This document shows positions 3,322 through 16,830 of a stretch of 64,000 nucleotides of DNA, one piece after another. Positions within the stretch are counted from its first letter, which is position 1; each line of letters starts with the position of its first letter. Origin of the DNA: Bacillus cereus (GTDB taxonomy: Bacteria; Bacillota; Bacilli; Bacillales; Bacillaceae_G); assembly GCF_002584535.1 (NCBI RefSeq), contig NZ_NUOT01000002.1, forward strand, positions 6,466 to 70,465. The letters run 5' to 3'. The translations under genes were made by a program, and so were the position numbers. The notes under the pieces were generated by a model. It worked only from the letters and a program-made list of their open reading frames with translations. It had not been told where the DNA came from and made no database searches.

Positions 3322-4863
3322 TTATCTTTTAGTAACATCCATTTCCTCCAGATTCCAAACTCGAGTCACCCAAGACTCATAAAAAGAAGGTTCATGAGAA
3401 ACAAGTAAAATCGTTCCCGTGTATTGCTCTAATGCTTCCTTTAATGCCTCTTTCGCATATATATCTAAATGATTCGTTGGTTCATCTAAAATTAAAAAAT
3501 TGCTTTTCATTAGCATCAGCTCACATAAACGTACTTTTGTCTGTTCTCCGCCACTTAAAGAACATAGAGATTGCCGAATATGATCTGCCTTTAACCCACA
3601 TCGTGCTAAAGATTGCCGAATTTCTTTTTGCGTCATATCCGGACGCCTTGACCATACTTGCCCAAGTGGTGTAATTTCAGCTGCAAAATCTTCTTGCGCA
3701 AAATATGCAGGCTGTACTCTCTCTCCAATATGAACTGCTCCGCTTAATGGTTCTAGTTGCCCTAGTAACGTTTTTAACATTGTTGTTTTTCCAATTCCAT
3801 TATGACCAACAATTGCAATCTTTTCGCCTCTTTTCACTTGTAAATTAAAAGATGAAAATAATGGTTCCGCATAACCAATTTGAATCTGTTTTGCTTGTAA
3901 TATACGGCTCACAGGCTCAGTGTGAATGCTGAAATGAAAATACGGCTTTGTTACATCGTTAGGCTTTTCAACCTTTTTTATTTTCTCCAATACCTTTTCA
4001 CGACTTTTTGCTTGTTTCGCTTTTCGAATTTTATTTTTTTGGATAAAACTCTCTAAATTTGCAATGTCTTTTTGCTGTCTTGTATAAGCTACTTGTAATT
4101 GTTGCTTCTGAAGTTGGTAGCTTTCTAAAAACCTTTCATAATTTCCTGCGTATCGCTTTATTGTTTGCCCTTCTAAATGATAAATAACATTTGTAATGTG
4201 ATTTAAAAATGATTCATCGTGTGAAACGACAATGTAAGCATGCTCATACGCTTGTAAATATGCCCTTAACCAATCAATATGAACTGTGTCTAAATAATTC
4301 GTTGGCTCATCCAGCAATAAGACATGTGGTTTCTCTAAAAGAAGCTTTCCAAGTAATAACTTTGTACGCTGGCCGCCACTTAGTTTTGAAACATCTTTTT
4401 TTATACCTAAGTCTAATAAACCTAAGCCAGCTGCTACTTCTTCTATTTTTGTATGAACTTGATAAAAATTTGAGCCTTCCAATATATTTTGTAATTCTCC
4501 ATATTTCACTAATAACTTTTCTAACTCCGTTTCCTTTCCCATCTTTTCAGCAAGTGTTACCATTTCACGTTCAATTTCATAAAGATGAGAAAAAGCGCTT
4601 TGTAAATATTCTTCAATCGTTGTTCCCTCTTGTAAATCAATATGTTGCTGTAAGAAACCGATCTTCACATGTGGAAACCATTCAATCGTTCCAGCATCAG
4701 GCAAAATTTCTCCTGTTAACAGCCGAAGCAATGTTGACTTTCCTGCACCATTATTTCCAACAAGTCCAACATGCTCCCCTTGTAATAATCGAAAACAAGC
4801 ATTATATAAAATGGTTTTATCTCCATACGTATGCATAAGATTTTCTACTGTTAATACGCTCAT
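3322..4863 (-). CDS. ABC-F family ATPase (ribosome-associated, possible antibiotic target protection)
   Basis: A 513-residue soluble protein with two ABC cassettes and no membrane domain. The first cassette has Walker A GNNGAGKST (about residue 37), signature LSGGQRTKL and Walker B LLLDEPTNYLD. The second has GHNGIGKTT (about 345), LSGGEQTKV and LILDEPTNHLD. A charged helical linker between them (about 235-310, KAKQAKSREKVLEKI) is the segment that enters the ribosome in ABC-F proteins. Members either tune translation or dislodge ribosome-targeting antibiotics. Its leader carries a 12-codon peptide gene, a terminator and a hairpin over the Shine-Dalgarno, as found at drug-inducible ABC-F genes, so induction by a translation inhibitor is inferred. 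Confidence 0.9.
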   Translation of the reverse strand: MSVLTVENLMHTYGDKTILYNACFRLLQGEHVGLVGNNGAGKSTLLRLLTGEILPDAGTIEWFPHVKIGFLQQHIDLQEGTTIEEYLQSAFSHLYEIEREMVTLAEKMGKETELEKLLVKYGELQNILEGSNFYQVHTKIEEVAAGLGLLDLGIKKDVSKLSGGQRTKLLLGKLLLEKPHVLLLDEPTNYLDTVHIDWLRAYLQAYEHAYIVVSHDESFLNHITNVIYHLEGQTIKRYAGNYERFLESYQLQKQQLQVAYTRQQKDIANLESFIQKNKIRKAKQAKSREKVLEKIKKVEKPNDVTKPYFHFSIHTEPVSRILQAKQIQIGYAEPLFSSFNLQVKRGEKIAIVGHNGIGKTTMLKTLLGQLEPLSGAVHIGERVQPAYFAQEDFAAEITPLGQVWSRRPDMTQKEIRQSLARCGLKADHIRQSLCSLSGGEQTKVRLCELMLMKSNFLILDEPTNHLDIYAKEALKEALEQYTGTILLVSHEPSFYESWVTRVWNLEEMDVTKR

Positions 4864-4865
4864 TT

Positions 4866-4911
4866 TTGTTCTCTCCTTTTCTTTATAACTAACAAGCCAA
4901 ATAGAGAGAAC
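4866..4911 (-). promoter_or_regulatory. hairpin sequestering the ABC-F ribosome binding site
   Basis: On the minus strand GTTCTCTC (4911-4904) is complementary to GAGAGAAC (4875-4868), which contains most of the Shine-Dalgarno GGAGAG (4876-4871) of the ABC-F gene. Folding would hide the site, suggesting a translational checkpoint in addition to the upstream terminator. Confidence 0.55.
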
Positions 4912-4943
4912 AGCAAAATAAAGATCTTATTTAATTGTGTATA

Positions 4944-4981
4944 CATGAAAAAATGGGTAAGGTGAATACACCTTACCCATT
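4944..4981 (-). terminator. leader terminator (attenuator) upstream of the ABC-F gene
   Basis: A 13-bp perfect stem (AATGGGTAAGGTG / CACCTTACCCATT, loop 4 bases, 4952-4981) followed on the minus strand by six T residues. It sits between a small leader peptide gene and the ABC-F start, where it would stop transcription unless an alternative fold forms. Confidence 0.8.
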
Positions 4982-5077
4982 ACAATTTCACTTTATTATC
5001 GTAAAAAAGGATTAAGGTTCTTTACCTGCTGTCTTCAATTTGGCCTAAACTTTAAAAATGGGCAGACTCCTCCCATA

Positions 5078-5116
5078 TCAAGCTAAAACCATTTGAAGAA
5101 CAGTTGATAAAGTCAT
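5078..5116 (-). CDS. leader peptide MTLSTVLQMVLA of the ABC-F attenuator
   Basis: A 12-codon reading frame with AAAGGA 4 bases before its ATG and a second AAAGGAG further upstream. It ends 97 bases before the terminator stem. Directly after its stop, ATGGGA (5076-5071) can pair with CCCAT (5062-5058), and the same CCCATT can alternatively pair with AATGGG, the 5' arm of the terminator. This four-segment arrangement is the standard architecture of ribosome-stalling attenuation. Expression of the peptide itself is inferred, not shown. Confidence 0.65.
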   Translation of the reverse strand: MTLSTVLQMVLA

Positions 5117-5189
5117 TTTATCCTTTCACTCCTTTGTAAATCATTATTGTTCTATAACAAGCATATACCATGCTCTTATATTTTATTCG

Positions 5190-5957
5190 TTATAAATCTG
5201 TTTGTTCCTCTTTTTCACTAAAAATTTCTTCATACATTTTCTCCATTACATATGGACTTGTAAAATCAAAAGTTAATGATTTCCACATATGGATTCTTCT
5301 CTGCAATTCTACTCCATACTCTTTACTTGCTATCTTCTTTACTTCTGGAACGTGCTCTTCTTCCTCAAATTGTTTTACCGACTTCTGTTCACCTGTTGTA
5401 TAATCTGTTAAACAGCTGATAACTCCTCGGCCATGTTCTTGTGATTGTTCTTCTAAATCAAACAGAATTGTATGTATACATCCAGTTACAAGAAACATTT
5501 CTCGATGAAGATTTCCTCTTGCTTGCTTATTCATCATTCGATAAAAAGTATTTTTCAATTCATAAAACGTATCTTTCGTATCAAATTCATCATATTTCTT
5601 ACGAAGCAGCATAATTTTGGCTAACTCCGCTCTTGCGTCCATACATTTTAATAAATCTGTTACGAAAGACATCGCATGCTCTACGTATCCTTTTTGAATC
5701 ATAGAATCTGTAAATTCATCGAATATCTGCTCGAATTTCCCTACTAAAAAATTCCCCGTCAATTCTGGTGTTTCTTCTAAAAATTCGTTACGTAATTTCA
5801 TAAAGTCAACTAGCTTTTCCACTTCTTCTGCTGTTACATCGGAATCTTCCACCAAACCAAGCTGCATCATGCTAATCTTGTTCTTCAATTGCGGCTTTAT
5901 CTCTTCTACACTATTTACGTTTAATTCATCTATCATTTGTTGAATTGTTTTATCCAT
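5190..5957 (-). CDS. hypothetical cytoplasmic protein, alpha-helical
   Basis: A 255-residue acidic, Lys/Glu-rich protein with no signal peptide and no membrane helix. The ATG at 5957 is chosen because GGAGGAG ends 5 bases upstream; the in-frame ATG one codon earlier is too close. The N-terminal 60 residues are strongly helical (VEEIKPQLKNKISMMQLGLV) and the rest holds scattered aromatic residues and two cysteines (TGCIH, ISCLTDY). I do not recognise the family. It stands alone, with a promoter element apparently placed inside the loop of the preceding operon's terminator. Confidence 0.7.
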   Translation of the reverse strand: MDKTIQQMIDELNVNSVEEIKPQLKNKISMMQLGLVEDSDVTAEEVEKLVDFMKLRNEFLEETPELTGNFLVGKFEQIFDEFTDSMIQKGYVEHAMSFVTDLLKCMDARAELAKIMLLRKKYDEFDTKDTFYELKNTFYRMMNKQARGNLHREMFLVTGCIHTILFDLEEQSQEHGRGVISCLTDYTTGEQKSVKQFEEEEHVPEVKKIASKEYGVELQRRIHMWKSLTFDFTSPYVMEKMYEEIFSEKEEQTDL

Positions 5958-5973
5958 CATATCTCCTCCATAC

Positions 5974-6022
5974 AAAAAGCCTCTTAACAATCATTATACC
6001 AAAAATTGTTAAGAGGCTTTTT
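5974..6022 (-). terminator. terminator of the thiamin-precursor transport operon, with a -10 element in its loop
   Basis: Long inverted repeat AAAAAGCCTCTTAACAAT / ATTGTTAAGAGGCTTTTT just after the thiZ stop. The loop contains, on the same strand, TTGGTATAATG (5998-5993 is TATAAT with an extended TG motif), a likely promoter for the 5190-5957 gene. Confidence 0.7.
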
Positions 6023-8904: not shown

Positions 8905-8950
8905 GCATGCAAGTTATTATACAATAACATCTGCTTACATCACTTTAAGT

Positions 8951-9029
8951 AACTCCCTACGCTGGCATTATCCAGATCAGGTTGAGGGTCGATGCTCACT
9001 TACATCCTCTCAGCCAATTGGCTCCCCGG
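8951..9029 (-). ncRNA. TPP riboswitch (THI element) of the thiXYZ operon
   Basis: The minus strand contains the conserved TPP aptamer blocks in order: GGGGAGCC, GGCTGAGAGGATG, GACCCTCAACCTGATCTGG and ATAATGCCAGCGTAGGGAG. A terminator follows, so TPP binding should stop transcription before the transporter genes. Confidence 0.95.
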
Positions 9030-9271
9030 TTTTAATTCGTTTTCATTGTAGCATGATTTATTTTTTCAAACAAACAAATCACATTTTTTCATCACTTTAC
9101 ACTTAATTTTCTTGAAATAATGTCACAAAATGTAGTGAATGTTACTTTTTACGTGTTATATAATAAAAAAGGTTTATATAACAACTTTCTCTTTGTTTAA
9201 TTTAATAATTATCAGTTGAATTTAAATTATTCAAAAATATCTTACCATATGAATTTCGGAGGTAGTTTATC

Positions 9272-16434: not shown

Positions 16435-16446
16435 TGAACATGTGCT

Positions 16447-16545
16447 GTTACACTCTCCCTACGCTGGCATTATCCAACAGGTTCTAATGGTCAACGACAG
16501 ATTAGTCGTACTCTCAGTCTGCATCCGCAAACTCCCATGTGTTCT
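16447..16545 (-). ncRNA. TPP riboswitch of the thiM-thiE operon
   Basis: The minus strand shows ATGGGAG, GACTGAGAG, an extended P3 arm TACGACTAATCTGTCG, GAACCTGTTGGATAATGCC and AGCGTAGGGAG in order, with a terminator downstream. The P3 arm is longer than in the first riboswitch in this window. Confidence 0.93.
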
Positions 16546-16830
16546 TATTCATCTAATTCAGAGTCTACTCTTATTCTAATAAAATAACAAGTTTGTATAT
16601 TTTTTATCTTTATATTTAGAAAGATATTTTGGCACATCATCTTTTATCACTTCCACCACTTCGCCACAACACGCTTTGATACTTTTCCATAAAAACGAAA
16701 AACATACCCTACTATTCAAAGATGTAGAGTATTTAATGACTAACAAAAGGTTAGAATCTTCAACATAACTGAATCAAAAAAGGATGTATGCTATATTTAA
16801 CTTATGGAAATTTGAAAGGATGTTTTAAAT
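16546..16830. other. intergenic region, divergent promoters of thiM and topB
   Basis: An AT-rich stretch between the riboswitch and topB. It must hold the promoters of both divergent transcripts. I see no convincing reading frame or structured element beyond the topB ribosome binding site (AAAGGA before 16831). Confidence 0.5.

Follow-up and report, generated by a model that had tools for sequence, protein, structure and literature searches.

The leader of the Bacillus subtilis vmlR gene combines an upstream open reading frame (uORF) within an anti-antiterminator hairpin, an intrinsic terminator, and a hairpin sequestering the Shine-Dalgarno (SD) sequence of an ABC-F target (PMC9226507). A leader with corresponding parts, among them a proposed anti-antiterminator hairpin and a possible SD-sequestering one, lies on the minus strand of a 64,000-nucleotide (nt) stretch of Bacillus cereus DNA (contig NZ_NUOT01000002.1, positions 6,466 to 70,465; hereafter the window), upstream of another ABC-F gene. 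The two differ in the uORF, which has three codons (MIN) in vmlR (PMC9226507) and 12 in the window, and in the clade of the ABC-F protein. Rfam family RF02452 (ncr1575, labelled a Bacillus small RNA) contains the uORF AUG AUU AAC UAA (MIN) and, going by this uORF, resembles the vmlR leader more than a small RNA of its own. As in the window, a core motif lies opposite its uORF, here with one mismatch. The window leader scores 22.1 bits against this family (E 0.64 and 0.36), short of the gathering score of 60 bits that membership would require.

Other described leaders share some of these features. The B. licheniformis ermD/ermK attenuator has a uORF, a terminator, and the core about 40 nt past the uORF stop, whereas it encodes the RLR macrolide peptide MTHSMRLRFPTLNQ and controls a methyltransferase. 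In the B. subtilis tlrB (yxjB) leader, which also has a uORF, pausing is needed for induction, and both transcription and translation are attenuated, but the stall peptide is of the RYR type and the pause is NusG-dependent (PMC6851288). The cplR and VgaL leaders likewise exert uORF-driven attenuation of ABC-F genes and, going by their description, differ in having short uORFs, MRI in the case of cplR (PMC10201436). The Listeria hflXr leader rli80 is a uORF attenuator 5′ of a ribosome-rescue resistance factor, described with a 14-codon RLR uORF (PMC6310831). Finally, uORFC-6-1 is, like the window leader, a covarying leader RNA with a uORF; it occurs in Bacillales, mainly before hflX, has a single uORF type (RLR), and its available description names no core common to other leaders (PMC8632094). 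The drug-sensing leaders compared here have been described singly, per gene or uORF type, and a short common signature would offer a sequence handle across families.

Our analysis indicates that the window leader likely attenuates transcription under the control of a ribosome, in the manner of vmlR. By analogy to the vmlR, tlrB, cplR, and ermK leaders, this conserved RNA would act as a switch, probably activating the ABC-F gene when antibiotics stall ribosomes. Its elements are listed below in the order of transcription (loci and genomes compared with the window carry the prefixes L and G).

5129..5135, minus strand: leader-peptide SD sequence AAAGGAG (from the sequence)
5005..5127, minus strand: long leader hairpin, the proposed anti-antiterminator; 5127-5120 pairs with 5012-5005, and the leader codons plus stop (5112-5080) pair with 5052-5020
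5078..5116, minus strand: leader open reading frame (ORF) MTLSTVLQMVLA plus stop (from the sequence; similar to leaders such as those of L082, L071, and L211)
5055..5076, minus strand: core motif ATGGGAGGAGTCTGCCCATTTT (one mismatch to ACRGGWNNNGTSTGYCCWTTTT), common to other resistance-gene leaders; proposed RNA-polymerase pause signal
5001..5018, minus strand: candidate antiterminator 5′ arm ACCUUAAUCCUUUUUUAC, predicted by constrained folding to pair with the terminator 5′ arm
4969..4981, minus strand: terminator 5′ arm AATGGGTAAGGTG (sequence and terminator scan)
4948..4964, minus strand: terminator 3′ arm CACCTTACCCATT plus T run (sequence and terminator scan)
4869..4912, minus strand: hairpin over the ABC-F SD sequence, a possible translational layer (folding of six sequences)
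3322..4863, minus strand: ABC-F ATPase of 513 amino acids, YfmM-side clade (family profiles and protein tree)

The initial annotation of this DNA had placed a leader ORF with its own SD sequence at 5116-5078, followed by four complementary segments. This placement on the minus strand was confirmed, and the coordinates of all segments are correct: ATGGGA (5076-5071), GCCCATT (5063-5057), AATGGGTAAGGTG (4981-4969), and CACCTTACCCATT (4964-4952) plus a T run. The ORF starts with ATG at 5116-5114 and encodes the 12 codons MTLSTVLQMVLA before a TGA stop at 5080-5078; the SD sequence AAAGGAG (5135-5129) lies 12 nt from the ATG, a long spacing, and an additional purine run, AAAGGA, is found nearer to it (5126-5121). 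Directly past the stop follow the 22 bases of the core, whose consensus is ACGGGANNNGTCTGYCCWTTTT. Within 4900-5350 the hairpin at 4981-4952 is the sole terminator-like site (shuffle mean 0.1), and the whole leader (5137-4944) folds with −64.9 kcal/mol (z −6.29; 0 of 200 shuffles equally good).

The upstream ORF ends just 54 nt from the leader SD sequence, and a promoter scan returned two candidates compared to a shuffle mean of 1.8, i.e., no excess. Both observations would suit an ordinary terminator of the upstream gene accompanied by a chance ORF, an explanation that is nevertheless very improbable given the conservation and covariation of the leader across other genomes. The ORF in question (5190-5990, minus strand; 266 codons) matches no Pfam or NCBIfam family.

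Stepwise genome searches revealed 11 orthologues of the window ABC-F with 56–67% identity (L066-L076), and ten of them are preceded by a leader ORF of the same kind, the same core past its stop, and then a terminator. Their leader peptides include MMILSTVLLRD, MFFLSTVLKR, MFMSVVFQQVLS/A (with MFMSVVFQQVLS in L071), MLKSVVLQQVLS, MFTTVVLAVDLA, MFSFFLAIGLA, and MLTTVVLAVRVA. Two further leader-bearing relatives are L082 (52% match), with the peptide MRLSTVLQMVFG, and L211, with MFLSAVLAIVLA, which was found via the core pattern. In the remaining orthologue, L068, both leader and core are missing; its uORF, MNRTMPNQLHQLHHHHKQR, is His-rich and, as judged by eye, apparently accompanied by two terminators. 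A uORF ahead of a terminator, together with the His-rich uORF of this motif-less orthologue, could point to an amino-acid-sensing attenuator in the style of trp or his; since MTLSTVLQMVLA contains no run of a single amino acid and the target is an ABC-F rather than a biosynthetic gene, we regard this as highly improbable.

The ABC-F protein scores 412.1 bits against NCBIfam NF000355 (ribosomal protection-like ABC-F), above the curated cut-off of 380. Among the 25 families listed, those named for antibiotic resistance (Vga, Msr, Lsa, Sal, OptrA, CplR) have cut-offs that it misses by far (e.g., Msr with 287 of 680). A tree of 49 proteins groups the window protein with L066-L076, L082, and L211 and splits these 14, with support of 100/100, from 35 proteins that we call YfmM-like. 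The leader is kept in the loci of 13 of the 14 proteins. The core lies within 500 nt upstream of ten of the 11 orthologues, compared to only two, L082 and L044, among 53 YfmM-like genes that are less closely related, 17 of which are outside the protein tree. As the tree puts L082 into the leader clade, the latter count becomes one of 52; among the 35 YfmM-like proteins of the tree, a match with two mismatches upstream of L044 is the only one. Genome contigs searched with the protein gave 13 distant ABC-Fs (24–40% identity), plasmid and phage protein searches gave, among the matches listed, only relatives below 60% identity, the order of G171 contained nothing above 53% identity, and no match at E≤1e-178 came from the 13 genomes in the class of G236.

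The long hairpin of about 120 nt recurs along with the leader. In each of ten leaders its 5′ arm consists of the purine run ahead of the start codon and the leader ORF, and z values range from −3.02 to −6.25 in all ten sequences (the window and nine others), and no more than 1 of 300 shuffles folds equally well. A joint RNAalifold analysis of the ten gave almost no signal, as MAFFT alone misaligned the two orthologue groups, which were then aligned separately. A covariance model, R1, built from five sequences matched three loci, L072, L074, and L071, at E≤0.001 and three others, L075, L073, and L082, at 0.01–0.06. Six sequences outside the R1 build have standard pairs in 220 of 262 cells, with 60 two-sided changes in 31 pairs, compared to 45–54% pairing and 8–12 two-sided changes in 6–10 pairs when the partners are slid by 1–3 columns. 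Across 398 genomes R1 finds matches, some of them antisense, in eight, seven of which have known orthologues; in the eighth, G342, the match lies before a different ABC-F. No Rfam family reaches its gathering score over the leader in the window and eight homologue loci (the single match in L074 lies elsewhere). Conservation, with leaders of the same kind before ten of 11 orthologues, covariation, and the terminator support well what the initial annotation had claimed, a uORF-containing transcription attenuator before an ABC-F gene.

Switching could then proceed as follows. In the absence of drug, the long hairpin (5127-5005) would form, 5018-5001 would be partly locked, and the terminator (4981-4952) would halt RNA polymerase. 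A drug that holds a ribosome on the leader would block the base of the long hairpin, and the freed segment 5018-5001 would pair with the terminator 5′ arm, so that transcription proceeds into the ABC-F gene. When folding is constrained by placing a ribosome on the leader and leaving out the terminator 3′ arm, the terminator 5′ arm is predicted to pair, in all nine sequences tried and for one or more stall positions in each, with a segment 49–70 nt past the GTCTG of the core.

Several observations weigh against this reading. R1 also matches its own members in antisense (E 1.6e-4 to 0.01), a level that its matches in L073, L075, and L082 do not exceed, and it misses L076; the covariation alignment was fitted to R1, so that the counts lean toward the model. 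The predicted window antiterminator (5018-5001) forms under every stall position, and also without a ribosome if the terminator 3′ arm is omitted, and that of L074 appears only at the earliest stall tried. Selection on the peptide is weak: in eight 12-codon leaders the synonymous share is 0.236 compared to a permuted mean of 0.138, with 51 of 1000 permutations as high, and codon changes show no third-position excess. RNA pairing may constrain the same leader letters, so that the stalling peptide stays putative. MTLSTVLQMVLA has no match among the uORFs of the published leaders compared, as far as these are given in the available texts.

A different switch had been put forward in the initial annotation: a hairpin of segments 1 and 2 permits the terminator, and a ribosome near the leader stop covers segment 1, so that segment 2 (GCCCATT, within the core) pairs with AATGGG of the terminator arm. 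The parts exist in the window, where the 1:2 hairpin AUGGG:CCCAU is perfect, segment 2 would stay free with a ribosome stalled near the stop, and UGCCCAUU:AAUGGGUA could form 8 bp; a UGYCC:GGGUA pairing is, by eye, kept in most orthologues. Yet against shuffled terminator arms the 2:3 pairing yields p 0.08 in the window, 0.03–0.46 in L066-L076 without L068, 0.89 in L082, and 0.63 in L211, and constrained folding, which favours the other antiterminator arm, picks it only in L072 and L075, at late stalls. The 1:2 stem is poorly kept elsewhere and lacks covariation outside L076; what is conserved is the larger leader hairpin, which extends to 5005. We consider the four-segment scheme only partly supported and unlikely. 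The outer 1:2 pair, formed by core positions 3 and 17, is G-C at 107 of 133 other motif sites, G-T at 5, A-C at 18, and otherwise mismatched at 2; only L076 has a compensated A-T. On these counts, a GGG:YCC hairpin was rejected as a general conserved feature. The core as a universal antiterminator arm is likewise unsupported, as only 10 of 124 loci reach p≤0.05 against shuffled terminator arms (7 of 131 loci had no terminator found).

The core extends far beyond the ABC-F clade of the window. A pattern derived from the window-type core and allowing up to two mismatches was searched in 398 genomes of the class of G171, which we take to be Bacilli. It occurs in 116 of them, with 132 matches compared to nine for a reversed-pattern control (by our count). 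Ten matches lie in loci already collected, and the other 122 were examined as L097-L218. Of these sites, 108 precede genes for ABC-F (77), DUF1062/S4 (11), Erm (7), Mef-like (3), RlmA-like (3), or RidA-like proteins (2), or, once each, another MFS protein, Mph, FexA-like, Cfr, or HflX; 14 have other or no genes. The labels were assigned by a script and a hand list, mostly by pattern, with family libraries run on representatives only: Cfr, Erm, HflX, and one Msr are above their family cut-offs, the Mph, Mef, and FexA matches are below, and seven of ten ABC-F representatives exceed the NF000355 cut-off, the other three (325–371 compared to 380 bits) coming from loci that end within the gene. The RlmA-like label of L171 is presumptive; no NCBIfam family matched at 1e-40.

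The spread of gene classes persists in 39 sites with dissimilar upstream DNA. A strong terminator stands before the ORF at 108 of 117 core sites compared to 27 of 585 shuffles. As the sites were picked by the motif, conservation within its 22 letters exists by construction. Other tests did not choose genes by motif, the comparison of ABC-F orthologues with YfmM-like genes above being one. Among eight Erm genes over the NF000499 cut-off, four carry the core within 500 nt with up to two mismatches, compared to none of 22 paralogues below the cut-off, presumably KsgA. Five named plasmid records, found by leader similarity, were inspected: the core is present without mismatch before ErmD of B. licheniformis, mef(F) of Macrococcoides canis, mph of Planococcus maritimus, and an RNA methyltransferase followed by an msr gene on a Priestia megaterium plasmid, and with one mismatch before cfr of pSS-03. 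In an even phylum sample, thin as it is, the core is at background outside Bacilli, with a related pattern in 5 of 124 genomes (G024 and G068 are also in the Bacilli sample) and, by our count, six reversed-control matches. RF02452 passes its threshold in only two of 20 other motif loci, L127 (139.4 bits) and L110 (103.4 bits); in L110 the match spans 1421-1607 on the minus strand.

In leaders of the window, RLR, and vmlR types the core follows the uORF, and elsewhere it lies within a longer uORF, which argues that nucleotides and not a peptide are conserved. In L105, L108, L109, L149, L169, L170, L209, L217, and L218, it lies in frame inside a long uORF and is read as G-x-x-L-[SP]-[IF]-[FL]. 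Conservation of this peptide as the cause of the motif was rejected because the three leader types named first have the core outside their uORFs. Identical letters in such different settings could also indicate an aptamer or protein-binding site, e.g., for a drug, NusA, or a ribosomal protein, merely assisted by the leader peptide. Plausible uORFs near the core in most gene groups examined argue against this, although a simple scan found no uORF with an SD sequence at L099, L210, L121, L123, and L139, and published mutants show that uORF translation is required in vmlR and hflXr (PMC9226507, PMC6310831). Such a site is thus rather improbable, still more so than the four-segment scheme.

As part of the attenuator, the core past the leader stop would instead act as an RNA-polymerase pause that gives a ribosome time to load on the leader before the decision, and leaders with otherwise dissimilar uORFs would reuse the same signal. 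The fixed letters of the core agree with the consensus G-10 Y-1 G+1 of the elemental pause (PMC12288461). In the vmlR leader, NusG-independent pauses have been mapped across from the uORF in SL-1, also in vitro (PMC9226507); this region corresponds to the core position in RF02452, presumably down to the exact bases. On the other side, a fit to a three-position consensus could be chance, and the NusG motif TTNTTT, present in the window (TTTTTT, 5008-5003), is absent from that place in L066-L070.

We tentatively propose, with doubt slightly prevailing, that ACGGGANNNGTCTGYCCWTTTT serves, as a programmed RNA-polymerase pause, to synchronise transcription with translation generally in antibiotic-sensing attenuators of Bacilli, whatever the uORF, drug class, or resistance gene, and that motif plus terminator predicts inducible ribosome-drug resistance genes, including so far unrecognised ones such as DUF1062/S4 and the YfmM-side ABC-F clade. 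If true, inducible ribosome-protection or drug-resistance genes could be found without knowledge of the gene family, the core would point to candidate factors (DUF1062/S4, RidA-like, and the YfmM-side ABC-F clade), and the reason for a single signal in all these leaders would become a testable question. In the literature searched, no description was found of a core common to several uORF types and gene families, including the available text of PMC10219788, PMC4335068, PMC12421871, and PMC6429828, with supplements and figures outside the search; a query with the core as sequence letters gave, among the matches listed, papers unrelated by title. Given that the HflX locus L199 combines the core with an R-I-R uORF, uORFC-6-1 (PMC8632094) may contain the core, part of which may have been described earlier in this way.

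The DUF1062/S4 proteins are candidate new ribosome-acting drug factors. Their loci with the core upstream are L121-L124, L131, L132, L137, L139, L141, L143, and L151; L121 and L151 were checked with Pfam as representatives, with an S4 match in L121 only. The RidA-like genes L128 (checked with Pfam) and L201 have the motif and a uORF ending in GY/IGYSTAVFF upstream.

The hairpin over the ABC-F SD sequence is supported by folding in the window (z −2.49), L066 (−3.76), L068 (−3.68), and L070 (−4.25), is weak in L073 (−1.20), and is unsupported in L071 (0.16). The window leader has no plasmid match and that of L154 no phage match, and a search of viral contigs gave two stretches. Elsewhere in the window, two TPP riboswitches are located at 8937-9038 and 16439-16548 on the minus strand.
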